64,000 bases of DNA, taken from assembly GCF_014643835.1 (NCBI RefSeq), contig NZ_BMKD01000007.1, positions 248,001-312,000 on the forward strand, read 5' to 3'. A program made the translations under genes and the position numbers. The notes beneath the pieces were generated by a model that saw only the letters and a program-made list of their open reading frames with translations, did no database searches and was not told where the DNA came from. Of the stretch, positions 1 to 12,178 are shown piece by piece. The stretch is from Mucilaginibacter rubeus (GTDB lineage Bacteria > Bacteroidota > Bacteroidia > Sphingobacteriales > Sphingobacteriaceae). The stretch's first letter is position 1, and every line of letters starts with the position of its first letter.

Positions 1-1196
1 TGGGTATCTATTCGTGTATTGGGAAAAATCTTGATGAAGTTAAGGAATCCCTTTATACCGGCAGGTCGGGCATTGTATATGATGCTATCCGTAAAGATTT
101 TGGCTACCGCTCAGGGCTTACCGGCGCGGTTGAAAAGCCCAACCTTAAAGGTACGCTTGATCGCCGGGCGCGTATCATGTTGCCCGAGCAAGGCGAATAT
201 GCATATATAGCCACCACCGAAGCATTACAGCAGGCAGGTATCGATGCCGATTACATCGCCCAAACCGATGTAGGCATTTTATACGGTAACGACAGTACTG
301 CCAAAGCTGTTATCGAAACCACAGATATCATCCGCGAGAAAAAAGACACCATGCTCATTGGTTCTGGTGCGGTTTTTCAAACCATGAACTCTACTGTTAC
401 CATGAACCTGGCTACCATATTCAAGCTGCGCGGTGTCAATTTTACCATCAGCGCGGCTTGCGCCAGTGGTTCGCATTCTATAGGTATGGGTTACCATCTT
501 ATCAAAAGCGGTATGCAGGACTGCATTATTTGCGGCGGCGCACAGGAACTCAGTCATTATTCAATGGGCAGTTTTGATGCGCTTTCGGCATTTTCTGTAC
601 ACGAGGCCGACCCTGCTAAAGCCTCCCGCCCGTTCGATCGTGACCGCGACGGATTGGTTCCAAGCGGCGGAGCAGCTACTGTGATTTTGGAAAGCCTGGA
701 ATCGGCCCTAAAACGAGGCGCTACTATTTTTGGCGAGATTGTTGGTTATGGTTTTTCATCAAATGGGGGGCATATTTCAAACCCAACGGTTGAAGGGCCG
801 GTACGCTCGTTGAATATGGCATTAAAAGATGCCGGTATACAGGCTTCTGAAATTGACTATATCAATGCTCATGCCACCTCTACCCCTGCCGGTGATGCCA
901 GCGAGGCTAAAGCCATTGATGAGGTTTTTGGCGATTATAAGCCCCTGGTAAGTTCAACCAAATCCATGACCGGTCATGAGTGCTGGATGGCGGGTGCAAG
1001 TGAGATCGTTTATTCGATGCTGATGATGCAAAACTCGTTCGTGGCGCCTAACATTAACTTTGAAAACCCCGACGAGGATTCGGCGAAACTTAACATCGCT
1101 ACCGAAACCGTCGATAAAAATATAGATACATTCCTGTCAAACTCGTTTGGGTTTGGCGGCACCAATTCGTCCCTGATTATTAAAAAATATATTTAA
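1..1196 (+). CDS. beta-ketoacyl-ACP synthase (KAS I/FabB-like), 5' partial
   Basis: Condensing enzyme that extends an ACP-bound acyl or polyene chain with malonyl-ACP. The reading frame is open to the left edge: bases 1-2 are the end of a Met codon followed by GIYSCIGKNLDE, a typical KAS N-terminal stretch, so only a few residues are missing and the ATG at 177 is internal. The thiolase-fold catalytic triad is visible: Cys in AACASGS (nt 459), His in NAHATSTP (nt 870) and His in MTGHECWMAG (nt 975). The C-terminal GFGGTNSS loop is also present. The downstream ACP starts 11 bp later. The GHECWMAGASE form resembles the KAS of aryl-polyene/flexirubin clusters. Family assignment is firm; the cluster role is inferred from context. 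Confidence 0.93.
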   Translation, partial: GIYSCIGKNLDEVKESLYTGRSGIVYDAIRKDFGYRSGLTGAVEKPNLKGTLDRRARIMLPEQGEYAYIATTEALQQAGIDADYIAQTDVGILYGNDSTAKAVIETTDIIREKKDTMLIGSGAVFQTMNSTVTMNLATIFKLRGVNFTISAACASGSHSIGMGYHLIKSGMQDCIICGGAQELSHYSMGSFDALSAFSVHEADPAKASRPFDRDRDGLVPSGGAATVILESLESALKRGATIFGEIVGYGFSSNGGHISNPTVEGPVRSLNMALKDAGIQASEIDYINAHATSTPAGDASEAKAIDEVFGDYKPLVSSTKSMTGHECWMAGASEIVYSMLMMQNSFVAPNINFENPDEDSAKLNIATETVDKNIDTFLSNSFGFGGTNSSLIIKKYI

Positions 1197-1207
1197 ACTA
1201 AGCCATT

Positions 1208-1465
1208 ATGCAAATTGAAGAGATCATAGAAAAAATCAACAGCTTCCTTGCCGAAGAATTTGAGGTTGATGCAGATAAAATGGTGCCCACAGCAAATCTG
1301 AAAGAAACCCTCGACCTTGACAGTCTTGATTATATCGACCTTGTTGTAGTAATTGAAAGCAACTTTGGGTTCAAAGTAAAACCCGAAGATTTTACGGGCA
1401 TTGTTACCTTCCAGGATTTTTACGATTACGTACTATCGCGCGTACAACCTGAGGAGCTTGCATAA
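1208..1465 (+). CDS. acyl carrier protein (first of two)
   Basis: An 85-residue acidic ACP that carries the growing chain on a phosphopantetheine arm. The attachment serine is Ser39 in LDLDSLDYIDL, the usual DSL motif, followed by the helix that docks to partner enzymes. The length is normal for a free-standing type II ACP. It sits between the partial ketosynthase and the acyltransferase, and its stop codon overlaps the next start (TAATG), which suggests translational coupling. It most likely serves this operon and not primary fatty-acid synthesis. A second, different ACP is at 7147. Confidence 0.93.
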   Translation: MQIEEIIEKINSFLAEEFEVDADKMVPTANLKETLDLDSLDYIDLVVVIESNFGFKVKPEDFTGIVTFQDFYDYVLSRVQPEELA

Positions 1466-2343
1466 TGCCCGCCTGGCAGGGAAAATCAAAAGGCAATACC
1501 CTTGGCTATCGCATTTTTGTAAGCGTTTTAAAAACAGCCGGTGTAATGCCGGCCTATTTTATGCTGAGGTTTGTGGCGCTTTATTACTTCCTGTTTTCGT
1601 GGCAAACATCAAAAGGAACATATTACTATTTCCACAAGCGGCTCGGTTTCGGCAAAGTAAAATCAATATTCAAGCTTTACCGCAACTATTACCTGTTTGG
1701 GCAAAGCATTATTGACAAAGTGGTGATCATGTCGGGTATTCCCAACAAATTCACTTTCAACTTTGACGGGATCGACAACCTACGGCAGATTGCCGCCATG
1801 AACAAGGGCGGATTACTGCTTAGCTCGCACATTGGCAGCTGGGAAATAGCAGGCGAACTGCTTGATCATATAAACACCCGCATTAACATTGTAATGTTTG
1901 ATGGCGAAGACAGGCAGATCAAGCAATACATGGATTCGGTAACCGGCGAGCGGAAAATAAACATCATTGTCATCAAAAACGACCTGTCGCACATATTTAA
2001 AATAAACGCGGCATTTCAGAACAATGAGCTGGTTTGCATGCATGCCGACAGGTATATCGAGGGCAATAAAACCATAACAAGGGAGTTTTTAGGTGAGGAT
2101 GCGAAATTCCCGGCAGGGCCGTTTGTAATGGCCGAAAAATTTAAAGCGCCGGTAACGTTTGTTTACGCACTAAAAGAAAGCGCGTTGCATTACCACTTTT
2201 TCGCCAGTCCGGTAAAGGATTATTCGGATTGGGGCAGAGGCAAAGGCATGGAACAACTGGCAAATGATTTTATAACCAGCTTTGAAAACAAGGTAAAAAC
2301 GTACCCTGAGCAGTGGTACAACTATTATAATTTTTGGCAATGA
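1465..2343 (+). CDS. LpxL/HtrB-like lysophospholipid acyltransferase
   Basis: A 292-residue protein of the lipid A biosynthesis acyltransferase family (LpxL/LpxM). These inner-membrane enzymes move an acyl chain from ACP to a lipid hydroxyl. The HX4E catalytic motif is visible as His122-IGSW-Glu127. A hydrophobic N-terminal segment (about residues 27-47) fits a membrane anchor. Homologous acyltransferases occur in aryl-polyene and flexirubin clusters, where they are thought to attach the finished polyene to a lipid or resorcinol acceptor. The gene overlaps the ACP stop on one side and the dehydratase-like start (ATGA) on the other. Substrate is inferred. Confidence 0.88.
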   Translation: MPAWQGKSKGNTLGYRIFVSVLKTAGVMPAYFMLRFVALYYFLFSWQTSKGTYYYFHKRLGFGKVKSIFKLYRNYYLFGQSIIDKVVIMSGIPNKFTFNFDGIDNLRQIAAMNKGGLLLSSHIGSWEIAGELLDHINTRINIVMFDGEDRQIKQYMDSVTGERKINIIVIKNDLSHIFKINAAFQNNELVCMHADRYIEGNKTITREFLGEDAKFPAGPFVMAEKFKAPVTFVYALKESALHYHFFASPVKDYSDWGRGKGMEQLANDFITSFENKVKTYPEQWYNYYNFWQ

Positions 2344-2762
2344 TCTTACCAACACAGGATATTTTACCGTTGATACCACAGCGGTCGCCATTTGTAATGA
2401 TTGACAAGCTGTTGTCATCAACTGATGACAACACGGTAACCTCGCTTCAGGTAAAGGCTGATAACGTTTTGGTAAGCGATGGCGAATTAAGCGAAGCCGG
2501 ACTGACCGAAAACATAGCCCAAACCGCCGCCGCTGGTGCCGGATATGCCGCTCAGCAATTAGGCAAACCTGTACAGCCGGGCTTTATCGGTGCGGTAAAA
2601 AACCTGGAAGTATTTGCTTTACCAAAAGTTGGCGATACCATAGAAACCGAAGTAAAAATTGAAAACCAGGTTTTCGATGTTACCATCATCAAAGGAAAAA
2701 TTACTTGCAAAGGCATAACGATAGCCCAATGCGAAATGAAAATATTTATTCAACCACAATAA
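2340..2762 (+). CDS. FabZ-like hot-dog dehydratase subunit lacking the catalytic His
   Basis: A 140-residue hot-dog protein resembling 3-hydroxyacyl-ACP dehydratases. It begins with a LIPQRSPFVMID segment equivalent to the FabZ LPHRYPFLLVD signature. The ATG at 2340 overlaps the upstream stop (ATGA) and is preferred over the TTG at 2334. The stretch that normally reads GHFPxxPxxPG with the catalytic His is shortened and reads roughly SDGELSEAGL, with no His. The acidic partner seems kept as Glu57 in LTENIAQ. This looks like an ApeP-type subunit that may need a partner to supply the His; the protein at 11819 has the opposite pattern. Family is clear; activity alone is doubtful. Confidence 0.83.
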   Translation: MILPTQDILPLIPQRSPFVMIDKLLSSTDDNTVTSLQVKADNVLVSDGELSEAGLTENIAQTAAAGAGYAAQQLGKPVQPGFIGAVKNLEVFALPKVGDTIETEVKIENQVFDVTIIKGKITCKGITIAQCEMKIFIQPQ

Positions 2763-2770
2763 TATCAACC

Positions 2771-3415
2771 ATGAAAAAAAACGCAATTAAACTGAGTTTA
2801 CTGATACTTTTATTAACCGCGTTCTTAAAACCGGCATCTGCCCAAACCAAAGCAGAGGTATTCGATAAAAAAACCCCGATAACCTGGTTAGGTATGGATT
2901 TTTCACAAATGAAATTCATTGGTTCGGAAGAAGCTTACAGACGGGAGGTGATCAATGCCGAATTTGTTGGCAAATACATCCCCCTATGGGAAAATTTCTT
3001 TCTAAAAGAACCTAAAAAATATAACCCAGCCAGGGCGGTTCACCGCGATACCGTTCATTTTGCAATGAATGTTACCGAAAAAGTTAACAACGCGCTTACC
3101 AAAAACTTCTTTGATACTGATCCCGGTCATTTCAAAACGCTGACCGAAAAAGATATTGATGCATTGATTAAAAACTATGATTTTTTAGGTAATAAAGGCA
3201 TCGGTATGTTGCTGATTGTTGAAGGCATGGATAAAGGGCGGGCGCAAGGGGGCGCCTGGGTAACTTTTGTTGATATGGATAAGAAAACGGTTTTATATAC
3301 CGTTTTCCGCACCGGCAACAGCCGTGGATTTGGTTTCAGAAATTACTGGGCACACCCATGGCCGGTAATCCTGGACGATTTTGGCGCTGATTTCGATCTT
3401 TTCAAAAAATACTAA
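2771..3415 (+). CDS. secreted hypothetical protein of the pigment operon
   Basis: A 214-residue protein with a clear signal peptide (MKKNAIKLSLLILLL, cleavage near ASAQ), so it is exported to the periplasm or envelope. The ATG at 2771 gives a proper signal peptide; an in-frame ATG at 2705 lies inside the preceding gene and would bury it. The mature part has no catalytic motif I recognise, but it is rich in aromatic and charged residues and ends in a conserved-looking NYWAHPWPVILDDFGADFD segment. It sits between the dehydratase-like and thioesterase genes, 8 bp after the former, so it probably belongs to the same envelope-pigment process. Function unknown. Confidence 0.75.
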   Translation: MKKNAIKLSLLILLLTAFLKPASAQTKAEVFDKKTPITWLGMDFSQMKFIGSEEAYRREVINAEFVGKYIPLWENFFLKEPKKYNPARAVHRDTVHFAMNVTEKVNNALTKNFFDTDPGHFKTLTEKDIDALIKNYDFLGNKGIGMLLIVEGMDKGRAQGGAWVTFVDMDKKTVLYTVFRTGNSRGFGFRNYWAHPWPVILDDFGADFDLFKKY

Positions 3416-3427
3416 GCCCTTAAGGTT

Positions 3428-3853
3428 TTGCAGCAATCGCTAATAAATACTATTGAGATTGAAGTCAAATTCAGTGACGTGGATATGCTGGGCGTGGTTT
3501 GGCATGGCAACTATATTCGATATTTTGAAGATGGCCGCGAGGCGTTTGGCAAGCAATATGGCCTGGGTTATATGGATGTATATAACGCGGGCTACGTTGT
3601 GCCTATAGTTAACGTAAATTGTGATTATAAGCGCTTTTTGCGGTACGAGGATAAGGTGATCGTCGAAACCACCTACACCCCTACCGAGTCGGCAAAGATC
3701 AATTTTACTTACAGGTTACTCAACGCCCAAACCGGCGAACTTATCGTTAAAGGATCGACAACACAGGTTTTTGTTCGCCGTGATAATTTTGAACTGCAAC
3801 TTACCAACCCGGATTTTTTTCTGGATTGGAAACAACAACAAGGTTTGATATAA
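3428..3853 (+). CDS. acyl-CoA/acyl-ACP thioesterase (4HBT, YbgC/FadM-like)
   Basis: A 141-residue single hot-dog thioesterase. The 4HBT signature is visible as FSDVDMLGVVWHGNY followed by RYFEDGREAF, placing the catalytic Asp near residue 19. It would hydrolyse an acyl-ACP or acyl-CoA, releasing a chain or editing stalled intermediates. No ATG fits; the start is TTG at 3428, 12 bp after the previous stop, with TAAGG just upstream. Free-standing thioesterases are standard in aryl-polyene and flexirubin clusters, so context supports a role in chain release or proofreading. Confidence 0.87.
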   Translation: MQQSLINTIEIEVKFSDVDMLGVVWHGNYIRYFEDGREAFGKQYGLGYMDVYNAGYVVPIVNVNCDYKRFLRYEDKVIVETTYTPTESAKINFTYRLLNAQTGELIVKGSTTQVFVRRDNFELQLTNPDFFLDWKQQQGLI

Positions 3854-3865
3854 CAGAACGCCGTG

Positions 3866-5002
3866 ATGAAGAAGGTTTACCTTGTTGCCGATAATGTTTA
3901 CTCGCCGTTAGGGGCTACCACCACTCAAAACTTTGAGCACCTGGTTAACGGCGTTTCAGGCGTGAGGCAACACGACGACAAAGCCCTGTCTGACGATCTT
4001 TTTTTCGCATCGCTATTTGAAAAAGTATATTTTCAAACCGATGAATACTGCACCAAATTCGAGCACCTTCTCATCGCTTCGTTAACCGAAACCTTACATG
4101 GAGTCGATAAAAATATATCCGATAAAAAAACTGTTCTGATTATTTCCAGTACCAAAGGCAACATCAGTCTGCTGGAAACGGAACAAGCGGGCCCTGAACT
4201 GGATGAGCGCATTGCCCTGCATTCATCAGCAAAAAAAATAGCCCGACATTTTGGTTTTGTAAACGAGCCAATAATAGTTTCACATGCCTGTATTTCCGGA
4301 CTTGTTGCTATGATCACCGGGATGCGATTGATCCAATCAGGGCAGTACGACCATGCGGTTATAGCCGGGGCAGATGTGATTTCAAAATTTGTGCTTTCGG
4401 GCTTCCAATCTTTTCAGGCCGTTAGTCAGGGATTATGCAAGCCATTTGATGCAGATCGTGACGGTATCAATTTGGGCGAGGGCGCGGCTACGGTTATTCT
4501 ATCGGCAGACAAACCAACCGGAGAAGCTATTGAATTAGTTTCGGGTGCAATAAGCAATGATGCCAACCATATTTCAGGCCCTTCACGCACCGGCGAAGAA
4601 TTATATTACGCCATCAATAAAGCGATGGATGCTGCCGGTTTAAAGCCTGAGGATATTGATTTTATATCTGCCCATGGTACAGCGACCGTTTATAACGACG
4701 AAATGGAAGCAAAAGCTGTAACGCTGGCCGGTTTGCAGCATGTTCCACTCAATAGCCTGAAAGGTTTTTACGGGCATACTTTGGGCGCTTCGGGATTGAT
4801 AGAGGCCATCGTTTCTGCTCAATCATTAAAGCAAAATACCATCATTCCTACCAAAGGCTTTAGCAAACAGGGCGGTGCTAACCCGGTAAACGTTTGCAGC
4901 CAATTGATATCAACGCCACTTAACCGTTGCCTCAAAATAGCCTCTGGCTTTGGGGGATGTAATGCAGCCATAATTTTAACCAAATCACAACAGGATATTT
5001 GA
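3866..5002 (+). CDS. beta-ketoacyl-ACP synthase (second, intact triad)
   Basis: A 378-residue thiolase-fold condensing enzyme. The triad is complete: Cys142 in SHACISG, His270 in SAHGTATVYND and His304 in GFYGHTLGASG, and the C-terminal GFGGCNAA loop is present. ATG at 3866 is chosen over the adjoining GTG at 3863. It is somewhat shorter than FabF (about 410 residues) and divergent in its first 120 residues, which suggests a specialised substrate such as a polyene-ACP. It lies 12 bp after the thioesterase and 4 bp before the halogenase-like gene, within one transcription unit. Confidence 0.92.
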   Translation: MKKVYLVADNVYSPLGATTTQNFEHLVNGVSGVRQHDDKALSDDLFFASLFEKVYFQTDEYCTKFEHLLIASLTETLHGVDKNISDKKTVLIISSTKGNISLLETEQAGPELDERIALHSSAKKIARHFGFVNEPIIVSHACISGLVAMITGMRLIQSGQYDHAVIAGADVISKFVLSGFQSFQAVSQGLCKPFDADRDGINLGEGAATVILSADKPTGEAIELVSGAISNDANHISGPSRTGEELYYAINKAMDAAGLKPEDIDFISAHGTATVYNDEMEAKAVTLAGLQHVPLNSLKGFYGHTLGASGLIEAIVSAQSLKQNTIIPTKGFSKQGGANPVNVCSQLISTPLNRCLKIASGFGGCNAAIILTKSQQDI

Positions 5003-5006
5003 TAAT

Positions 5007-6257
5007 ATGAACACAGAACAGGTAGATGTATTGGTAATAGGCGCCGGTCCGGCGGGCACGGTGGCCGCTTCTATCGTACACCAGGCAGGCTTTAAGGTAA
5101 AAATTGTAGAGAAACAGCTTTTCCCGCGGTTTGTGATTGGCGAAAGCTTGCTGCCACGATGCATGGAAGCGCTAACCGAAGCCGGCTTTGTAGATGCCAT
5201 AAGCGAAAAAGGCTTTCAGCAAAAAAATGGGGCTAAATTTGTGAAAGATGGCAAGATCTGCGATTATCAATTTGCCGACCAATTCACTCCCGGCTGGAAC
5301 CGGACCTGGCAGGTACCCCGTGCCGATTTTGATAAAACCTTAGCCGATACTGTTGAGAAAATGGGCGTTCCTGTTCATTACGAAACTACCGTTACTAATA
5401 TTGTTTTCAACGGCCAAAACTCGGTAACTACTTTGGAGGATAAAGATGGAAATCAAACAGAGATTTCGGCTCGTTTTATCATCGATGGCAGCGGTTATGG
5501 CAGGGTGATCCCCAAACTATTTAACCTCGACAGGCCATCGACCCAAGTTCCGCGTAAGGCGCTTTTTGTGCATACGGTGGATAAAAAACGCTCTATGGCC
5601 GATGAGCCAAACCGCATTACCATCGTAGTGCATCAGCCTGGCGTTTGGATCTGGATCATTCCTTTCGCCAACGGTATTACCTCCTTAGGTTTTGTGGGCA
5701 ATCCTGAGTTTTTTAAGCAACATGAAGGCTCCGACGAAGAGATTTTGCGTGGATTGATAGCGTCGCAACCATATTTCAGCGAGCGTTTTGAGGATGTGGA
5801 ATTTACTTTCGCACCGAGAGTTTTGGAATCATGGTCGGCCACTACAGATAAGTTTTATGGTAATGGCTTTGTACTTACCGGTAACGTAACAGAGTTCCTT
5901 GATCCGATATTTTCATCGGGCGTAACGCTGGCTACGGTATCGAGCCAAACAGCAGCCAAACTGGTGATCCGCAAGCTTAACGGCGAAACTGTGGATTGGG
6001 ATAAAGAATACATGCAGCACATGATGCAGGGTGTAAATACCTTCCGCTCCTACGTTACCGCATGGTATGAGGGCGTGCTCGACACGATATTTTTTGCCAA
6101 TAACCAGGACCCGCTTGTTAAAAGTCAGATCTGCTCGGTATTGGCCGGTTATGTTTGGGACCTCGATAATCCGTATGTTAAAAATCACGAAACAGCTTTG
6201 CATAAACTGGCACGTACTATTACCCTAAGAGATTTAGTAGCAGCCGATAAAAGCTAA
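5007..6257 (+). CDS. flavin-dependent halogenase-like FAD oxidoreductase
   Basis: A 416-residue FAD enzyme of the tryptophan-halogenase-like superfamily. The FAD-binding GAGPAG motif is at residues 12-17, and IGESLLP near 44 matches the family's conserved GES/GEA motif. The halogenase WxWxIP signature is perfect (WIWIIP, residues 214-219). A lysine in KNGAKF (residue 73) falls where phenolic halogenases carry their catalytic Lys, although that alignment is by eye. Related enzymes occur in flexirubin clusters, where the ring can be chlorinated. It could be a halogenase or a non-halogenating hydroxylase or oxidase of the aryl head group. It is in tight operon context after a ketosynthase. Confidence 0.85.
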   Translation: MNTEQVDVLVIGAGPAGTVAASIVHQAGFKVKIVEKQLFPRFVIGESLLPRCMEALTEAGFVDAISEKGFQQKNGAKFVKDGKICDYQFADQFTPGWNRTWQVPRADFDKTLADTVEKMGVPVHYETTVTNIVFNGQNSVTTLEDKDGNQTEISARFIIDGSGYGRVIPKLFNLDRPSTQVPRKALFVHTVDKKRSMADEPNRITIVVHQPGVWIWIIPFANGITSLGFVGNPEFFKQHEGSDEEILRGLIASQPYFSERFEDVEFTFAPRVLESWSATTDKFYGNGFVLTGNVTEFLDPIFSSGVTLATVSSQTAAKLVIRKLNGETVDWDKEYMQHMMQGVNTFRSYVTAWYEGVLDTIFFANNQDPLVKSQICSVLAGYVWDLDNPYVKNHETALHKLARTITLRDLVAADKS

Positions 6258-6282
6258 AGGCAGGATCATTTAACCATGTACG

Positions 6283-6426
6283 AATTGAAAAACAATAAAT
6301 GAAAATTTTTCACACTAATTTTTACGTATTAATCGAATTACACGAATTGAATCAATTTAAGATTCGTGTAATTCGATTAATTGTGGAGCGCTTGCAAAGC
6401 ATTTGTGTAGAAATTTTTCAGTATGA
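6283..6426 (+). repeat. interspersed ~140 bp palindromic repeat, copy 1
   Basis: This AT-rich element fills the main gap in the pigment operon. Its core is an inverted pair, ATTAATCGAATTACACGAAT and its complement around GATTCGTGTAATTCGATTAA, flanked by outer arms containing TGAAAATTTTTCACAC and GTGTAGAAATTTTTCA. A near-identical copy in the opposite orientation is at 60959-61098. It carries no gene and is probably a miniature mobile or REP-like element. In the transcript it could fold into a long hairpin that affects expression of the downstream genes. Confidence 0.85.
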
Positions 6427-6444
6427 GATTAGTAAAACTATAAA

Positions 6445-7080
6445 TTGAAGAACCAATATTACATATCAGCTCACTGCAGTATCAGCGATAACATTGTTCG
6501 TTATAATAACGAAGTCGTATTTGCGGGTACAGAGAATGATATTCCCGGTTTTTTTCTGTCGGTTTACCAGCATCTTGGGGTAAAATACCCTAAGTTTTAT
6601 AAGATGGATAACCTGGCAAAACTGGGTTGGCTTACTGCTGAAGTTTTGCTGAAAGATTTCGACAAGGCGAAATATCAGCCGACTGACATCGGCGTGGTGT
6701 TAACCAACGCAAACTCCAGTCTTGATGCTGATAAGCGGTATTATGATTCGATGCAGGAGATAGCAAGCCCTGCATTATTTGTTTATACGCTACCCAACAT
6801 TGTTATCGGCGAGATCTGCATCCGTCATCATTTTAAAGGCGAAAACGCTTTTTATATTTTTGACCGGTTTAATGCAGATTTCATAGCAAGTTACGTTTAC
6901 AACTTGCTCGATATCAGGCAATTGAATGTTTGTATTTGCGGATGGGTGGAGCTGCTTGGCGATGAATATAAAGCAGTTTTGTTTTTGATAGAAAAGGACG
7001 GTGTAATGCCCTTCAAAACAGAAAATATTAATAAAATTTACAACCCCACCCAAACCCTCTCCGAAAAGGAGGGCTTTTAA
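6445..7080 (+). CDS. truncated ketosynthase-like protein without active-site Cys
   Basis: A 211-residue protein that resembles the N-terminal half of a ketosynthase (GVVLTNANSSLDAD, then TLPNIVIGEICIRHHF). By eye it corresponds to the region before and around the nucleophile in its neighbours. Where KAS enzymes have the Cys nucleophile it reads FDRFNADF, and the C-terminal half with both histidines is absent. It is therefore not a condensing enzyme by itself; a structural partner or chain-length-factor-like role is possible. Translation must start at TTG 6445, since a stop lies 9 bp upstream. Its last 13 or so residues (NPTQTLSEKEGF) are encoded by an interspersed repeat, so the original end may have been altered. 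Confidence 0.75.
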   Translation: MKNQYYISAHCSISDNIVRYNNEVVFAGTENDIPGFFLSVYQHLGVKYPKFYKMDNLAKLGWLTAEVLLKDFDKAKYQPTDIGVVLTNANSSLDADKRYYDSMQEIASPALFVYTLPNIVIGEICIRHHFKGENAFYIFDRFNADFIASYVYNLLDIRQLNVCICGWVELLGDEYKAVLFLIEKDGVMPFKTENINKIYNPTQTLSEKEGF

Positions 7081-7130
7081 AAATGTGTTTTTTTAAGTCT
7101 CCCCTACCGGGGGAGATTTAGAGGGGGTAA
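7041..7130. repeat. CCCTCTCC-type palindromic repeat overlapping a gene end
   Basis: This is an inverted pair: a left arm with CCAAACCCTCTCCGAAAAGGAGGG and a right arm with CCCCTACCGGGGGAGATTTAGAGGGGG. The stop codon of the ketosynthase-like gene (7078-7080) lies inside it. Related elements are at 10477-10558, 30806-30925, 34893-35012 and 62918-62977. They recur beside or inside gene ends, which suggests a mobile or recombinogenic repeat that may also act as a transcript hairpin. Confidence 0.8.
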
Positions 7131-7146
7131 TTATAAAACTTACAAT

Positions 7147-7410
7147 ATGGATAAATTAATGGCCGATCTGAAAGAGCAGATCATTGAGCAGTTGAACTTA
7201 CAGGATGTAAAGCCGGAAGATATCGGTGATGACCAGCCGCTTTTTGGTGATGGCCTTGGTCTGGATTCGATAGATGCCCTGGAACTTATTGTACTGCTGC
7301 AGCAAAAGTATAAAGTAAAACTTTCTAACGCTGAAGACGGCCCTAAAATCTTCCGCTCAGTGCGTACCATCGCCGAATTTATTGAAAGCACCAGGATCCC
7401 GAACGCCTAA
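7147..7410 (+). CDS. acyl carrier protein (second)
   Basis: An 87-residue type II ACP. The phosphopantetheine serine is Ser41 in GLGLDSIDALEL, a DSI variant, while the first ACP has DSL. The N-terminal helix is lysine/glutamate-rich. The two ACPs are clearly different in sequence and may load different ketosynthases, for example one for priming with an aryl starter and one for elongation. It is 66 bp after the ketosynthase-like gene, with a repeat in that gap, and 3 bp before the next ketosynthase. Confidence 0.93.
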   Translation: MDKLMADLKEQIIEQLNLQDVKPEDIGDDQPLFGDGLGLDSIDALELIVLLQQKYKVKLSNAEDGPKIFRSVRTIAEFIESTRIPNA

Positions 7411-7413
7411 ACA

Positions 7414-8613
7414 ATGGAGCAACCTGTTTTTATAGCCGGCCTTGGGGTAATTTCGGCCATAGGTAATACTGTGGCTCAAAACCTGCTGTCGCTTGAGCAG
7501 GAAAAAACGGGCATTGCCCCTATCCAATACCTTGATACTGACCACCGGGATGAGTTTCCGGTTGGTGAGGTTAAACTGAGCAATGCTGAACTTGCGGAAT
7601 TATCGGGATTTAAACATGGTATCAGTCGCACGGCTATGCTAAGCTTAATTGCCGCTAAAGAAGCTTTAGCCGACACCGAACTTGCTAACCTTGCAGGACT
7701 AAGAACAGGTTTTGTCTCAGCCAATACCGTCGGCGGCATGGATAAAACAGAAGATTTTTTCAGGGACTTTTTAGACGATAACACCAAAGGCAGATTACGC
7801 AATGTCATTAATCACGAGTGCGGGGCCATTACCAATTTAGTTGCCGATCAGCTGGGTATAAGGCATTATGTAAGCACTATTAGCACGGCTTGTTCTTCAT
7901 CGGCTAATGCCATTATATACGGCGCAAGGCTTATTAAAAACAACATACTGGATGTGGTTATTGCCGGCGGTACCGATGCACTTACCCGCTTTACCCTCAA
8001 CGGTTTTAACACCCTCATGATATTGGATAAACAGCCCTGCCAGCCTTTTGATGCCAACCGCCGTGGCCTTAATCTTGGTGAGGGTGCAGGGTATGTGGTG
8101 CTGGTATCTGCGCGAATAGCATCATCGCTTAAAAAAGAGATATATTGCACCTTCGGCAGCTATCATAACGCCAATGATGCCTATCATCAAACGGCTTCAT
8201 CGCCCGAAGGAACCGGATCATTGTTGGCCATGGAAGGCGCGCTTAAAAAAAGTGGCTTACAGCCTGCCGATATCAGTTATATTAACCTGCATGGTACAGG
8301 CACACAAAATAATGATAGTTCAGAAGGCACAGCCATCAGCAAGCTATTTGCAGGACATTCTCCAAAAATGAGCTCTACTAAAGCATTCACGGGGCACACG
8401 CTCGGAGCAAGCGGCGGCATTGAAGCCGTGTTTTCAGCATTGGCGGTGCGGCGCGGTTTGATATACCCTAATCTGAGGTTTGAAACGCAAATGGACGGCT
8501 TTCCTTTTACACCGGAGACCCATTTTTCAACGCAGCCGGACGTCAAACACGTATTATCTAACTCTTTTGGGTTTGGCGGAAATTGTTCATCATTAATATT
8601 TTCAAAACTATAG
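7414..8613 (+). CDS. beta-ketoacyl-ACP synthase (third, intact triad)
   Basis: A 399-residue FabF-like condensing enzyme with all catalytic residues: Cys160 in STACSSSANA, His293 in NLHGTGTQNND, and His328 in KAFTGHTLGASGG. The GFGGNCSS loop closes the active site. Its length matches typical KAS II. It is followed after 3 bp by a ketosynthase homologue with no triad, an arrangement like ketosynthase/chain-length-factor pairs of type II polyketide synthases and the ApeO/ApeC pair of aryl-polyene systems. The pair may therefore work as a heterodimer that sets polyene length. Confidence 0.92.
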   Translation: MEQPVFIAGLGVISAIGNTVAQNLLSLEQEKTGIAPIQYLDTDHRDEFPVGEVKLSNAELAELSGFKHGISRTAMLSLIAAKEALADTELANLAGLRTGFVSANTVGGMDKTEDFFRDFLDDNTKGRLRNVINHECGAITNLVADQLGIRHYVSTISTACSSSANAIIYGARLIKNNILDVVIAGGTDALTRFTLNGFNTLMILDKQPCQPFDANRRGLNLGEGAGYVVLVSARIASSLKKEIYCTFGSYHNANDAYHQTASSPEGTGSLLAMEGALKKSGLQPADISYINLHGTGTQNNDSSEGTAISKLFAGHSPKMSSTKAFTGHTLGASGGIEAVFSALAVRRGLIYPNLRFETQMDGFPFTPETHFSTQPDVKHVLSNSFGFGGNCSSLIFSKL

Positions 8614-8616
8614 GCG

Positions 8617-9666
8617 ATGTACATCAGGGCAGCAAGCAATATATCGCCACAAAATACCTTCGGTAATCAGCGGTTCCTTTCAGAACTGGCAGGATATACC
8701 GGCGACGGGCTCACCTGTATTGAACCGGATTATAAAGCCCTGATCGATCCAAAAATCATCCGCCGCATGAGCCGAATCATTAAAATGGGTGTTGCTGCCG
8801 GGATGGATTGCCTGCAACAAGCCGGAGTCAACGCGCCGGATGCTATCATCACCGGAACGGCTTACGGCTGCCTGGAAGATACCAATACCTTCCTTACTAA
8901 AATGGTGCAGCAAAACGAGGAAGCGCTATCCCCTACCGCGTTTATCCAATCCACCCATAATACCATCAGCGCGCAGATAGCCTTACTGCTGCAATGTCAT
9001 CAATACAACAACACCTTTGTAAATGGCGGCGCTTCGTTTGAAAACGCCCTGCTTGATGCTATGATGCTTTTGTATGAGGGCGAAGCGGCCAATGTACTGG
9101 TTGGCGGTATCGATGAAATCACCACTAATAGTCATGCTATTTTAAAGCGCATGGGCTTATATCGCCGGGAACAGGTATCAAACTTTGATCTGCTTAATAC
9201 TCCCGGCAAGGGGACAATGGCTGGCGAAGGATCCGCGTTTTTCATGTTGAGCAGGGAAGCCTCGGATAATGACTGGGCTAAAATTGATGGCGTATCCAGC
9301 TTTTATAAACCGCGCAACACCGCCGAAATAAAACAACAGATCAGCATTTTTTTGCAAAGCCAAAACGCCAATATCCATGAGATTGACCTGGTAATAACCG
9401 GTAATAACGGTGATTTAAAAAATGATGCCGTTTATGAGCAATTGCTAAAATATGATTTTGCTAATGCGCCTGTTATCAATTACAAAGCCCTCTGCGGCGA
9501 ATATCCAACCTCATCGGCATTTGCAACGTGGCTGGCGGCGCATGAAATCAAAGCTGGGGGCTGTTCATTTGTACCTGAAAGCGACCAAACTTCGTTAAAA
9601 AAGGTATTGATCTATAATCATTACCAAAATATCCACCACTCGTTAATCCTGCTTTCGGCATGTTAA
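8617..9666 (+). CDS. ketosynthase-like chain-length-factor candidate (dead triad)
   Basis: A 349-residue protein over the full thiolase-fold length. The Cys nucleophile is replaced by Ser140 (NGGASFENA). The first His region reads TGNNGD and not HGTxT. The second His is replaced by Glu295 (LCGEYPTSS, where active enzymes have GHTLGAS). All three catalytic residues are thus missing while the fold landmarks remain, including GEGSAFFML near 203-211. By analogy with type II PKS chain-length factors it probably pairs with the ketosynthase directly upstream. Its stop overlaps the next start. Role inferred; loss of the triad is seen directly. Confidence 0.82.
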   Translation: MYIRAASNISPQNTFGNQRFLSELAGYTGDGLTCIEPDYKALIDPKIIRRMSRIIKMGVAAGMDCLQQAGVNAPDAIITGTAYGCLEDTNTFLTKMVQQNEEALSPTAFIQSTHNTISAQIALLLQCHQYNNTFVNGGASFENALLDAMMLLYEGEAANVLVGGIDEITTNSHAILKRMGLYRREQVSNFDLLNTPGKGTMAGEGSAFFMLSREASDNDWAKIDGVSSFYKPRNTAEIKQQISIFLQSQNANIHEIDLVITGNNGDLKNDAVYEQLLKYDFANAPVINYKALCGEYPTSSAFATWLAAHEIKAGGCSFVPESDQTSLKKVLIYNHYQNIHHSLILLSAC

Positions 9667-10433
9667 ATTTCAGGAATACCAATATCCTTTTTGCCGGGCT
9701 GCTGGGGTTGATAATCTGGCAGGATATTACAGAAGGGGTATCCTGGTGGAGTTATCCAGTGTTGATTTTTATTTACTCGCTGATATTATTTTACGGGTGC
9801 TATTACATCGGCTCTAACTTTTTTATGCGGGTGATGTGCTCACTCAAAACCAACAAAAAGATCATTGCCATTACTTTTGATGATGGACCTGACACTACAG
9901 CCACTCCACAGATTTTGGAGATTTTAAGGCAACATAACACCCCGGCAGCATTCTTTTGTATTGGTAATAGAATATCCGGAAATGAAACCATCCTGAAACA
10001 AATTCACGAAGAGAGCCATATCATCGGGAACCATAGTTTTTCGCACCATTTCTGGTTCGATCTGTTTTCTTCCGCCAAAATGCTGGATGATATGCTTCAG
10101 ACCAATCAATCAGTAAGGCAGACGATTAACTTAAGTCCACTGTTGTTCCGCCCCCCTTACGGGGTGATCAACCCCAACCTCAAAAAAGCCATTTTAAAAA
10201 GTAGGATGGTGCCCATAGGCTGGAGCGTGCGGTCCATGGATACCATTATTAACGATCCTAAAAAACTATTAAATAAGATAACCCGCTGTTTAAACCCCGG
10301 CGCTATTTTCCTGTTTCATGATACGGGAGCTGCAACAATTTCGGTATTGCCCCTGTTTATTGAACATGCCAAAGCACAGGGATACGAAATAGTACGACTG
10401 GATAAAATGCTAAATTTGCAGGCTTATGCGTAG
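9660..10433 (+). CDS. membrane-anchored polysaccharide deacetylase (NodB domain)
   Basis: A 257-residue carbohydrate esterase family 4 protein. Two hydrophobic segments (about residues 8-22 and 33-56) anchor it, followed by the NodB domain: ITFDDGP (71-77) with the catalytic and metal-binding Asp pair, the metal ligands His125 and His129 in NHSFSHH, and RPPYG. Such enzymes remove N-acetyl groups from GlcNAc polymers or related sugars. The start overlaps the previous gene by 7 bp, and its stop overlaps the next start, so it is integrated in the pigment operon. Related genes are known near flexirubin clusters in some Bacteroidota. The substrate here is unknown and may be a lipid or glycan modification. 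Confidence 0.88.
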   Translation: MLNFRNTNILFAGLLGLIIWQDITEGVSWWSYPVLIFIYSLILFYGCYYIGSNFFMRVMCSLKTNKKIIAITFDDGPDTTATPQILEILRQHNTPAAFFCIGNRISGNETILKQIHEESHIIGNHSFSHHFWFDLFSSAKMLDDMLQTNQSVRQTINLSPLLFRPPYGVINPNLKKAILKSRMVPIGWSVRSMDTIINDPKKLLNKITRCLNPGAIFLFHDTGAATISVLPLFIEHAKAQGYEIVRLDKMLNLQAYA

Positions 10434-11220
10434 ATTGATTGAAAATAAAATATTAAAAGCTGAAGCAGGGGCTGTGCGATTCCCTCCCTCGGGAGGGTTT
10501 AGGGAGGGGTTTCATCAGCGTTTAACCCCTACCTCCTCCTTCCCCAAGGAAGGAATCGCGCGGGCCGCCACACTTTTATCATGTACTAAGTCTCTGTTGA
10601 TTCTTTTGATAATCACCTGCGCGGCCATCTCTGCCCAAGCCCAGCACGCAGGTTATACCCAACTATCTGATCTTACCAAATTCAAACAGCAGTTTGCCGA
10701 AGTTGCTGCAAAAACAAACAGCATTAAAAGCGATTTTACCCAGGATAAAAATCTGAGCATGCTTTCAGAAAAGATCACCTCTAAAGGCAAATTCTGGTAC
10801 CGCAAGCCCAATATGCTGCGGATGGAGTATACCCAGCCATTCAGCTATCTCATGATCCTGAACAAGGACAATGTGTACATTAAAGATGGACAAAAAGAAA
10901 ACAAGGTATCCACCCGCTCCAACAAAGTATTTAAGCAGATCAACAAAATCGTTGTCGATTGTATACAGGGAACGGCACTCAATAGCGGCGATTTTAAATC
11001 GGCGGTATACGAAAACAAGGGCACCTATTTAGTTTCTCTATCCCCTGTCAATAAACAACTGAGTGACTTTTTCAAAACCATCGAGATCACTGTTGATAAA
11101 AAAGATTATTCGGTAAACACCATCGAAATGCTGGAAGGTACGGGCGATAGCACTACCCTGCATTTCACCAATAAAGAGATCAATGCCAATATCCCGGATG
11201 CGTTTTTTGCTATTAAGTAG
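10426..11220 (+). CDS. LolA-like outer-membrane lipoprotein carrier, repeat-extended N-terminus
   Basis: A 264-residue periplasmic carrier of the LolA fold, visible from GKFWYRKPNMLRMEYTQPF and the repeated strand pattern that follows. LolA homologues (ApeL type) are regular members of aryl-polyene clusters and may ferry the lipid-linked pigment. The ATG at 10426 overlaps the preceding stop (ATGCGTAG). About residues 17-45 are encoded by an inserted palindromic repeat, so the hydrophobic signal segment (SLLILLIITCAAISAQA) sits unusually far from the start. Either the long leader works, or a non-ATG codon after the repeat is used. No better ATG exists in frame. Confidence 0.83.
   Translation: MRRLIENKILKAEAGAVRFPPSGGFREGFHQRLTPTSSFPKEGIARAATLLSCTKSLLILLIITCAAISAQAQHAGYTQLSDLTKFKQQFAEVAAKTNSIKSDFTQDKNLSMLSEKITSKGKFWYRKPNMLRMEYTQPFSYLMILNKDNVYIKDGQKENKVSTRSNKVFKQINKIVVDCIQGTALNSGDFKSAVYENKGTYLVSLSPVNKQLSDFFKTIEITVDKKDYSVNTIEMLEGTGDSTTLHFTNKEINANIPDAFFAIK
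10477..10558. repeat. CGATTCCCTCCC palindromic repeat inside a coding start
   Basis: An 82 bp inverted repeat. The left arm CGATTCCCTCCCTCGGGAGG continues to GGGAGGGGTT; the right arm begins AACCCCTACC and ends CCAAGGAAGGAATCG, close to its complement. It lies in frame within the 5' part of the LolA-like gene. Same family as 7041-7130, 30806-30925 and 34893-35012. Confidence 0.85.
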
Positions 11221-11818
11221 CTGCCTGCTAATGCTGGCTGGCTGCTCATCGGTTTACAAAAACCTGAAGCCGACCGAAGGCAATGTACGCGAGATCAAAA
11301 AATTCGCGCCCGATTTTACCAATGTGCTTTATAAAACCGGGGTAGATGTAATTGGCGGGCATCATTTAAGCGGCCTGTTGCTGATTAAAACCCTACCCGA
11401 TAAAAGCGTACGTATGGTATTCAGCAATGAGATGGGTTTTAAATTCTTTGATTTTGAATTTAAACCCGACGGCGGCTTCAAGGTGTATTATATCATAAAG
11501 CAAATGGATAAACGCCCGGTGATCATCACCCTGCAAAAAGACTTTGAACTGGTGATGATGCGTAAGCAAAACCCCGAAACAGGTTATATGCGCAAAGATG
11601 ATAACTATCTGTATTATGTTTTCCCGCAGGAAAAAGGCGCCAACTATTACATCACCAATAAAACCGGAACAGAGCTAATCCGCATGGAACGCTCATCCGA
11701 CAGGAAACCCGTGGTGCAGGCCATTATGCATGGCTTTCACAATGGCATCCCTGATACCATTGGCATCAGCCATAAAAACTTTAAATTTAATATCGGTCTT
11801 AAACGTTTGGAAAGATAG
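11198..11818 (+). CDS. small envelope lipoprotein of the pigment operon
   Basis: A 206-residue lipoprotein. From ATG 11198 the signal peptide reads MRFLLLSSCLLMLAGCSS, with a good lipobox (LAGC). An upstream in-frame ATG at 11183 adds five residues and is less likely. The gene starts inside the end of the LolA-like gene. Its position next to LolA matches the DUF3261-type lipoprotein (ApeN) of aryl-polyene clusters, but I cannot confirm homology by eye. The mature part is rich in beta-prone, aromatic stretches, fitting a small lipid-binding envelope protein. Confidence 0.78.
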   Translation: MRFLLLSSCLLMLAGCSSVYKNLKPTEGNVREIKKFAPDFTNVLYKTGVDVIGGHHLSGLLLIKTLPDKSVRMVFSNEMGFKFFDFEFKPDGGFKVYYIIKQMDKRPVIITLQKDFELVMMRKQNPETGYMRKDDNYLYYVFPQEKGANYYITNKTGTELIRMERSSDRKPVVQAIMHGFHNGIPDTIGISHKNFKFNIGLKRLER

Positions 11819-12178
11819 ATGCTCAACAATACTTTTTTCAGTTTTACCACTCCCACAACTGATGGCGATTTGCTCAAAACAACCATCAGCCTTAACCCTG
11901 CGCATGATATTTTTAAAGGGCATTTCCCAGGCAATCCCATTGTGCCGGGTGTGTGCATGATGCAGATGGTCAAAGAGATTCTGGAAAATCAGCTCGGCAA
12001 AAAGTTAAGACTTGTTAAGGCTGATAGTATCAAGTTTCTGTCGTTCATCAACCCTAATGAACACCCCCAGGTTGGGTTGGAGATAAAGATGAGTACCGTT
12101 GATGAGCAGGTTAAGGCAGATGCGCAACTGGTAAATGAGGGGATTGTGTTTTTGAAGTTTAAGGGAGTATTCTCTTAA
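11819..12178 (+). CDS. FabZ/FabA-like hot-dog dehydratase subunit with Glu-to-Gln change
   Basis: A 119-residue hot-dog protein. The FabZ motif GHFPGNPIVPGV is intact, with the catalytic His at residue 35. The acidic partner seven residues after PG, normally Glu in PGVLxxE, is Gln49 here (PGVCMMQ). This is the mirror image of the protein at 2340, which keeps the Glu and lacks the His. FabZ active sites form at a dimer interface, so the two may form a heterodimer with one complete site. ATG follows the upstream stop directly (TAGATG). It is the last gene of the operon. Confidence 0.85.
   Translation: MLNNTFFSFTTPTTDGDLLKTTISLNPAHDIFKGHFPGNPIVPGVCMMQMVKEILENQLGKKLRLVKADSIKFLSFINPNEHPQVGLEIKMSTVDEQVKADAQLVNEGIVFLKFKGVFS

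Follow-up and report, generated by a model that had tools for sequence, protein, structure and literature searches.

The window, that is, the whole stretch of 64,000 nucleotides analysed here from Mucilaginibacter rubeus (contig NZ_BMKD01000007.1, positions 248,001 to 312,000), encodes two small dehydratase-like proteins, P0001 and P0002, which lie about 9 kb apart in a gene cluster of the flexirubin type with an aryl polyene as its predicted product. Each of them carries one half of the active site of the dehydratase FabZ, which raises the question of whether they are two impaired enzymes or two parts of one. The answer favoured here, with a probability of roughly 0.83, is that both proteins, which by their place in the gene order are probably FlxF (P0001) and FlxS (P0002), together form one split dehydratase with a single composite site. 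Complex formation, geometry and activity are predicted from the residues and their conservation, gene linkage, co-occurrence, the cluster type and a resemblance to ApeP/ApeI. Pigments of the flexirubin type are widely used as a marker of Bacteroidota. If the two proteins are one split enzyme, the pigment would require both, and annotations should not label either one a dehydratase by itself.

Both open reading frames (ORFs) named in a preliminary description of this DNA are present, with the residues ascribed to them. In P0001, Glu57 lies within the motif AGLTENIAQT, and His is absent from all 140 residues. P0002 carries GHFPGNP with His35; further on, Gln49 takes the position that Glu has in FabZ, and the spacing of the two matches GHFPxxPxxPGVxxx[E] of FabZ (translation, profile and MAFFT alignments). 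For FabZ of Helicobacter pylori, the catalytic residues are reported as His58 and a Glu72 from the other subunit (PMC2692856), in line with the earlier premise that the FabZ site is built from His and Glu of different chains. The flexirubin pair resembles FabZ in the hot-dog fold, in the GHFPxxP loop of FlxS and the E-x3-Q helix of FlxF, and in a His and Glu that would come from different subunits. Unlike FabZ, in which both residues lie in one sequence and give a homodimer with two sites, the pair has them split over two proteins, and neither P0001 nor P0002 has His and Glu on the same chain.

In profile alignments, the Glu of the FabZ E-x3-Q helix aligned with Glu57 of P0001, and the FabZ motif GHFPxxPxxPG with that of P0002. 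The equivalence of Glu57 with the FabZ Glu rests on profiles, because the two Glu were matched neither by single-sequence alignment nor by a nine-protein MAFFT alignment at 7-21% identity, both being too weak. The structural models were confident hot-dog folds for P0001 (mean predicted local distance difference test 94.0, predicted template modelling score 0.90) and P0002 (94.3 and 0.87, respectively), with Glu57 on a helix spanning residues 52-73 and Gln49 on a helix spanning residues 44-59. The NCBIfam FabZ models scored both proteins far below cut-off (29.8 against 113 for P0001; 27.9 against 155.15 for P0002).

Conservation of these residues was read at two depths. The close set comprised 60 relatives, with FlxF found in 23, all of which also carry FlxS, and FlxS found at E < 1e-9 in 24, G006 having FlxS only; in 15 further genomes only weaker FlxS matches were present, within ORFs of 397-608 amino acids that are LpxC-FabZ-like by size. 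Glu57 was present in 26/26 aligned FlxF and His35 in 23/23 aligned FlxS, and position 49 of FlxS, read by eye, was Gln in 20 and Asp, Lys and Ser in one each; two of 24 FlxS loci, misread on account of their cut flanks (G006 and G009), were dropped. The class-wide set comprised 296 genomes searched with profiles at E 1e-12; 65 FlxF and 56 FlxS were read, and a 57th FlxS row, from G117, was set aside as a fragment at the end of a contig. At this depth, Glu57 and Gln61 of FlxF (65/65 each) and His35 of FlxS (56/56) were invariant, and position 49 of FlxS was Gln in 43, Glu in 6, Arg in 3, Lys in 2, and Tyr and His in one each. No conserved His column was found in the class-wide FlxF, the richest being position 92 (28/65), with His at position 49 in 5/65.

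The exact complementary pattern of the window was thus present in 50/56 class-wide FlxS. The earlier wording of complementary broken active sites stands for the window and for these 50, but it is too strict for the family, because six FlxS retain Glu. Two other explanations were ruled out: a chance loss of residues in one genome, by the pattern in 65 FlxF and 56 FlxS, and a catalytic His elsewhere in FlxF, by its absence from P0001 and the lack of a conserved His column. The FlxS proteins read near named loci (n = 42; 36 in the flanks of 80 named loci and six in stretches of the G-numbered genomes) had His35 in 42/42 and, at position 49, Gln in 40, Ser in one and a sequence cut off in one. Absence of FlxS around named loci is uninformative, because many flanks stop short of its expected place, and the count of Glu57 near named loci (87/87) was left unused, the retrieval pattern EN[IMV]AQ including Glu57 itself. 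As a separate observation, eight of the 57 class-wide genomes with FlxF (G058, G061, G098, G128, G202, G274, G300 and G307) carry a tandem pair of FlxF and one FlxS, and every FlxF copy in them has Glu57.

The Gln at position 49 could also mean that the acid of FlxS moved by one helix turn, from 49 to 53 (Gln49-x3-Glu53 against Glu-x3-Gln in FabZ), in which case a FlxS homodimer would work and FlxF would be a non-catalytic helper. Among the 56 class-wide FlxS, 40 do have Glu at position 53 and nine have Asp there, and positions 49 and 53 share one helix in the P0002 model. However, the other seven FlxS, with no acid at 53 or at 49, still have His35, the E-x3-Q helix, needless for a helper, is kept in 65/65 FlxF, and ApeI-like proteins have Asp at position 49 in 6/6. 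The case for a moved acid is weakened by these comparisons, and we consider it unlikely.

A split dehydratase of this kind would not be new, since ApeI/ApeP, a dehydratase that serves the synthesis of aryl polyenes, has already been reported to be heterodimeric and to have only one active site (PMC8041823); stable heterocomplexes are also reported among nine X. doucetiae enzymes, ApeI and ApeP being two of the nine (PMC8253772). With the FlxS profile, E was 2.5e-9 for chain A of 6QSR and 5e-10 for 3ESI, and with the FlxF profile it was 7.7e-6 for chain B of 6QSR (7.2e-6 when the profile was built from five distant members). We take 6QSR to be the Xenorhabdus ApeI-ApeP complex, and 3ESI, by its sequence, was taken as an ApeI. 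In four aryl polyene clusters (Cedecea, Moellerella, Pseudoalteromonas and Cupriavidus), the I-type proteins have GHF and Asp and the P-type proteins have Glu; with the structures added, Asp at the acid place and the GHF His were each present in 6/6 I-type (four clusters, 6QSR_A and 3ESI) and Glu in 5/5 P-type sequences (four clusters and 6QSR_B). ApeI/ApeP and FlxS/FlxF are alike as two hot-dog dehydratases in one aryl polyene cluster, the P-type with the Glu and the I-type with the GHF His, and by domain matches and tblastn the flexirubin-type cluster holds two distinct hot-dog dehydratases within one type II polyketide synthase cluster of the aryl polyene type. They differ at the acid place of the I-type, where all six have Asp, whereas the window FlxS has Gln and 50/56 class-wide FlxS have no acid.

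A 47-row tree, from which two long-branch rows of a first tree were left out, grouped FlxS with ApeI (100/94) and FlxF with ApeP (93/80). The first tree, with one FabZ, gave 97/92 and 100/98 for the same groupings, respectively.

HadAB of Mycobacterium is, like the proposed flexirubin pair, a heterodimeric hot-dog dehydratase with one site; as reported, both catalytic residues come from HadB and the other subunit binds the chain (PMC4491049). Following that example, FlxF might be a chain-binding or scaffold hot-dog protein without a catalytic residue, and FlxS might do all the chemistry. HadAB is unlike the flexirubin pair in its hydratase 2 motif and in the presence of both His and Asp in HadB, whereas P0002 lacks an acid where FabZ has its Glu and neither window protein holds both catalytic residues; with Glu57 invariant in FlxF, a non-catalytic role for this subunit is highly unlikely.

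The two genes also occur together. Class-wide, FlxF was found in 57 and FlxS in 56 genomes, with both in 56, FlxF only in one (G088) and FlxS only in none (Fisher p 4e-60). A genus survey of 149 genomes gave both in 84, FlxF only in three (G387, G404 and G406) and FlxS only in two (G006 and G386); among the unpaired genomes, G386, G387 and G404 are 61-71% complete, G406 is 84% complete and G006 is in about 600 contigs. In class-wide pairs that shared a contig and were no more than 30 kb apart, FlxF came first and on the same strand in 34/34, the remainder of the 56 being on different contigs (20) or separated by a longer distance (G085, 478 kb; G165, 668 kb). The 84 genus pairs comprised 69 within 30 kb, 8 on different contigs, one farther apart and 6 neighbours. 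Neighbouring flxF and flxS, with 21-85 bases between the profile matches, were found in 2/56 genomes class-wide and in 6/84 of the genus; G132 and G159 have the two side by side within a cluster of ketosynthase, acyl carrier protein (ACP), FlxF and FlxS, and both FlxS have Glu49. Because the genes adjoin in eight other genomes, their separation by 9 kb in the window is no obstacle to pairing.

FlxF and FlxS could each pair with the housekeeping FabZ instead, as add-on subunits that redirect it to the polyene. A partner for this would be available, as long FabZ-like ORFs (in the same size range as above) are present even in genomes without FlxF/FlxS. The co-occurrence of the two proteins, the six genomes in which their genes adjoin away from other flx genes, and their kinship with ApeP/ApeI all argue against such an arrangement, which appears highly unlikely.

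In those six Mucilaginibacter genomes, the flxF-flxS pair lies behind a ketoreductase gene whose product is 72-83% identical to the ketoreductase of G001, the nearest genome compared (32% of sampled 31-letter words in common with the window). Two further stretches, L278 and L280, duplicate L107 and L065, and each genome was counted once. No other flx genes were found near the trio by tblastn with 18 flx proteins in the stretches read, 2 to 16 kb per side, with the exception of G380, in which a stretch of 22 residues resembling the end of LolB2 is encoded between the two dehydratase genes (L279:9714-9779), as if genes once between them had been lost from the usual order. Elsewhere in the three trio genomes examined (G011 and those of L065 and L107), a reduced polyene set was present, with a lyase, a ketosynthase, a 211-amino-acid protein, another ketosynthase and a ketosynthase-like protein, and an ACP match in two of the three.

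In the proposed split dehydratase, FlxF and FlxS would form a 1:1 double hot-dog. After ketoreduction in each extension round, the carrier-bound 3-hydroxyacyl chain would enter one interface tunnel, where His35 of FlxS and Glu57 of FlxF would serve as the base-acid pair that FabZ makes from two identical chains. The mirror-image site would be dead, FlxF having no His and the window FlxS no acid. As FabZ pairs its residues across subunits, a FlxF-FlxS dimer would have one His-Glu site and one site free to drift, and the alignments fit a single site because the Glu of FlxF and the His of FlxS are invariant, the acid place of FlxS varies and FlxF has no conserved His. The heterodimer with one working site put forward in the preliminary description is probable on the FabZ precedent, conservation, co-occurrence, adjacency in relatives and ApeI/ApeP kinship, but the strict loss of the second site does not extend to the whole family.

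Several results weigh against the split dehydratase. Besides the six FlxS with Glu49, 49/56 carry an acid (Glu or Asp) at position 53, and most FlxS could thus still have an acid of their own. Co-occurrence alone is no proof of a complex and is partly expected, because both genes belong to one cluster. G088 has FlxF without FlxS, a lack that may be real because the genome is 98% complete in about 70 contigs; its sole FlxS-like match lies inside a 468-amino-acid ORF (E 3.7e-7). In G006, which has FlxS, the sole FlxF-like match lies inside a 476-amino-acid ORF (E 3.4e-4), which counts against perfect pairing. With the FlxF profile, several FabZ chains outscore chain B of 6QSR (best 1.6e-8), and this chain has a His in DGHLPGW, the other four P-type sequences having no GHL there. 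The 47-row tree rejected neither FlxF with FabZ (p 0.318) nor FlxS with FabZ (p 0.281). Unlike ApeI/ApeP, the flexirubin pair is also not captured by the curated models of Pfam: PF22817 (ApeP-like) matched 0/26 FlxF at E up to 1, and was found in 0/3 whole genomes, where 14 controls were equally silent; PF22818 (ApeI-like) matched 23/23 FlxS at E up to 1 and was below cut-off for P0002 (18.2 bits against 28.5).

With the enzyme kind already known, the present analysis adds three points: its probable flexirubin counterpart in Bacteroidota, a spare acid that most FlxS have lost, and the ketoreductase trio kept when the cluster breaks up. A description of FlxF/FlxS as a heterodimer was not found in the literature searched by titles and abstract beginnings, a weak search that has most subscription journals outside its coverage. 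On the evolutionary side, we lean towards the view that site-splitting is further advanced in the flexirubin branch than in ApeI/ApeP: most FlxS would have lost the spare acid, so that neither chain works alone, a minority would retain it, making a living series from redundant to obligate, and in some Mucilaginibacter the pair and the ketoreductase would have left the cluster as a three-gene reduce-and-dehydrate cassette. Relatives with the second acid beside those without it would offer a test case for how enzymes become obligate heteromers, and the ketoreductase-FlxF-FlxS trio a compact unit for polyene work.

The assignment of the cluster to the flexirubin type draws on LolB2 and on the order of ketosynthase, ACP, acyltransferase and dehydratase genes, the lyase and ketoreductase being visible only in G001. 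The genes in the window are, in order, those for a ketosynthase (cut by the window start), an ACP, a lipid-A-type acyltransferase, P0001, a protein without Pfam match, a 4HBT thioesterase, a ketosynthase, a flavin adenine dinucleotide (FAD) enzyme, a 211-amino-acid protein without Pfam match, an ACP, a ketosynthase, a ketosynthase-like protein, a polysaccharide deacetylase, LolA, LolB2 and P0002. The start of P0001 falls within the stop codon of the preceding gene, and that of P0002 comes immediately after the lolB2 stop. By tblastn with the flx proteins, the gene order in G001 matches that of the window, preceded by genes for an aromatic amino acid lyase and the ketoreductase, and LolA was not among the matches in G001. 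In Chitinophaga pinensis, FlxA is reported as the lyase, FlxB or FlxV as the reductase and FlxC among the ketosynthases; FlxF and FlxS are called dehydratases, in passages that do not pair them, and flxP-flxU begins with a polysaccharide deacetylase (PMC3992019). The cluster type and, as far as known, the gene order are alike in both organisms, and the window pair probably represents the same two genes.

Table 1. Coordinates of the FlxF/FlxS pair, the surrounding cluster and the ketoreductase-FlxF-FlxS trios (window positions unless a locus is named).
Feature	Position	Strand	Evidence
FlxF-type dehydratase subunit P0001 (140 amino acids; acid half)	2340..2762	+	translation, profile matches, model; flx name by gene order
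Codon of Glu57 of P0001, proposed catalytic acid	2508..2510	+	translation; invariant in 26/26 and 65/65
FlxS-type dehydratase subunit P0002 (119 amino acids; His half)	11819..12178	+	PF07977, 28.8 bits against cut-off 23; profile; model
Codon of His35 of P0002, proposed catalytic base	11921..11923	+	translation; invariant in 23/23 and 56/56
Codon of Gln49 of P0002, at the FabZ Glu place	11963..11965	+	translation, profile; Gln in 43/56 class-wide FlxS
LolB2	11183-11818	+	NF053540 'flexirubin biosynthesis protein LolB2', 125.6 bits against 60
Remaining flexirubin-type cluster: ketosynthases, two ACPs, acyltransferase, thioesterase, FAD enzyme, polysaccharide deacetylase, LolA, LolB2	3..11818	+	domain matches; cluster start precedes window
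Trio locus	L057:12669-14265		
Trio locus, Mucilaginibacter sp. L196	L065:9263-10794		
Trio locus, M. myungsuensis	L107:9259-10799		
Trio locus	L279:8504-10135		
Trio locus	L281:2074-3588		
Trio locus	L282:9437-10988		

The four closest named records are all from Mucilaginibacter, with FlxF identities of 61-83%. A record titled Beijerinckiaceae bacterium (L138, isolate BOG_genome_mining.200) has a FlxF 52% identical to P0001, through either transfer or mis-binning.

Some minor features were seen within the cluster. A stretch rich in C/G runs lies at 7101-7127, upstream of the second ACP, with a single exact copy in the window, and a similar-looking stretch, noted by eye, lies at 10480-10560 within the 5' region of the LolA ORF that begins at 10426, which makes the true LolA start uncertain. 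The gap between the genes of the FAD enzyme and the 211-amino-acid protein contains a perfect 20-base inverted repeat with a 14-base loop (6328-6381). The 211-amino-acid protein itself (6445-7080) had no convincing match in the Protein Data Bank; it is also found between the ketosynthase and the ACP/ketosynthase in L056, L058, L059, L263 and L265 and in the reduced sets L275-L277, and it might be a short subunit resembling a chain-length factor.

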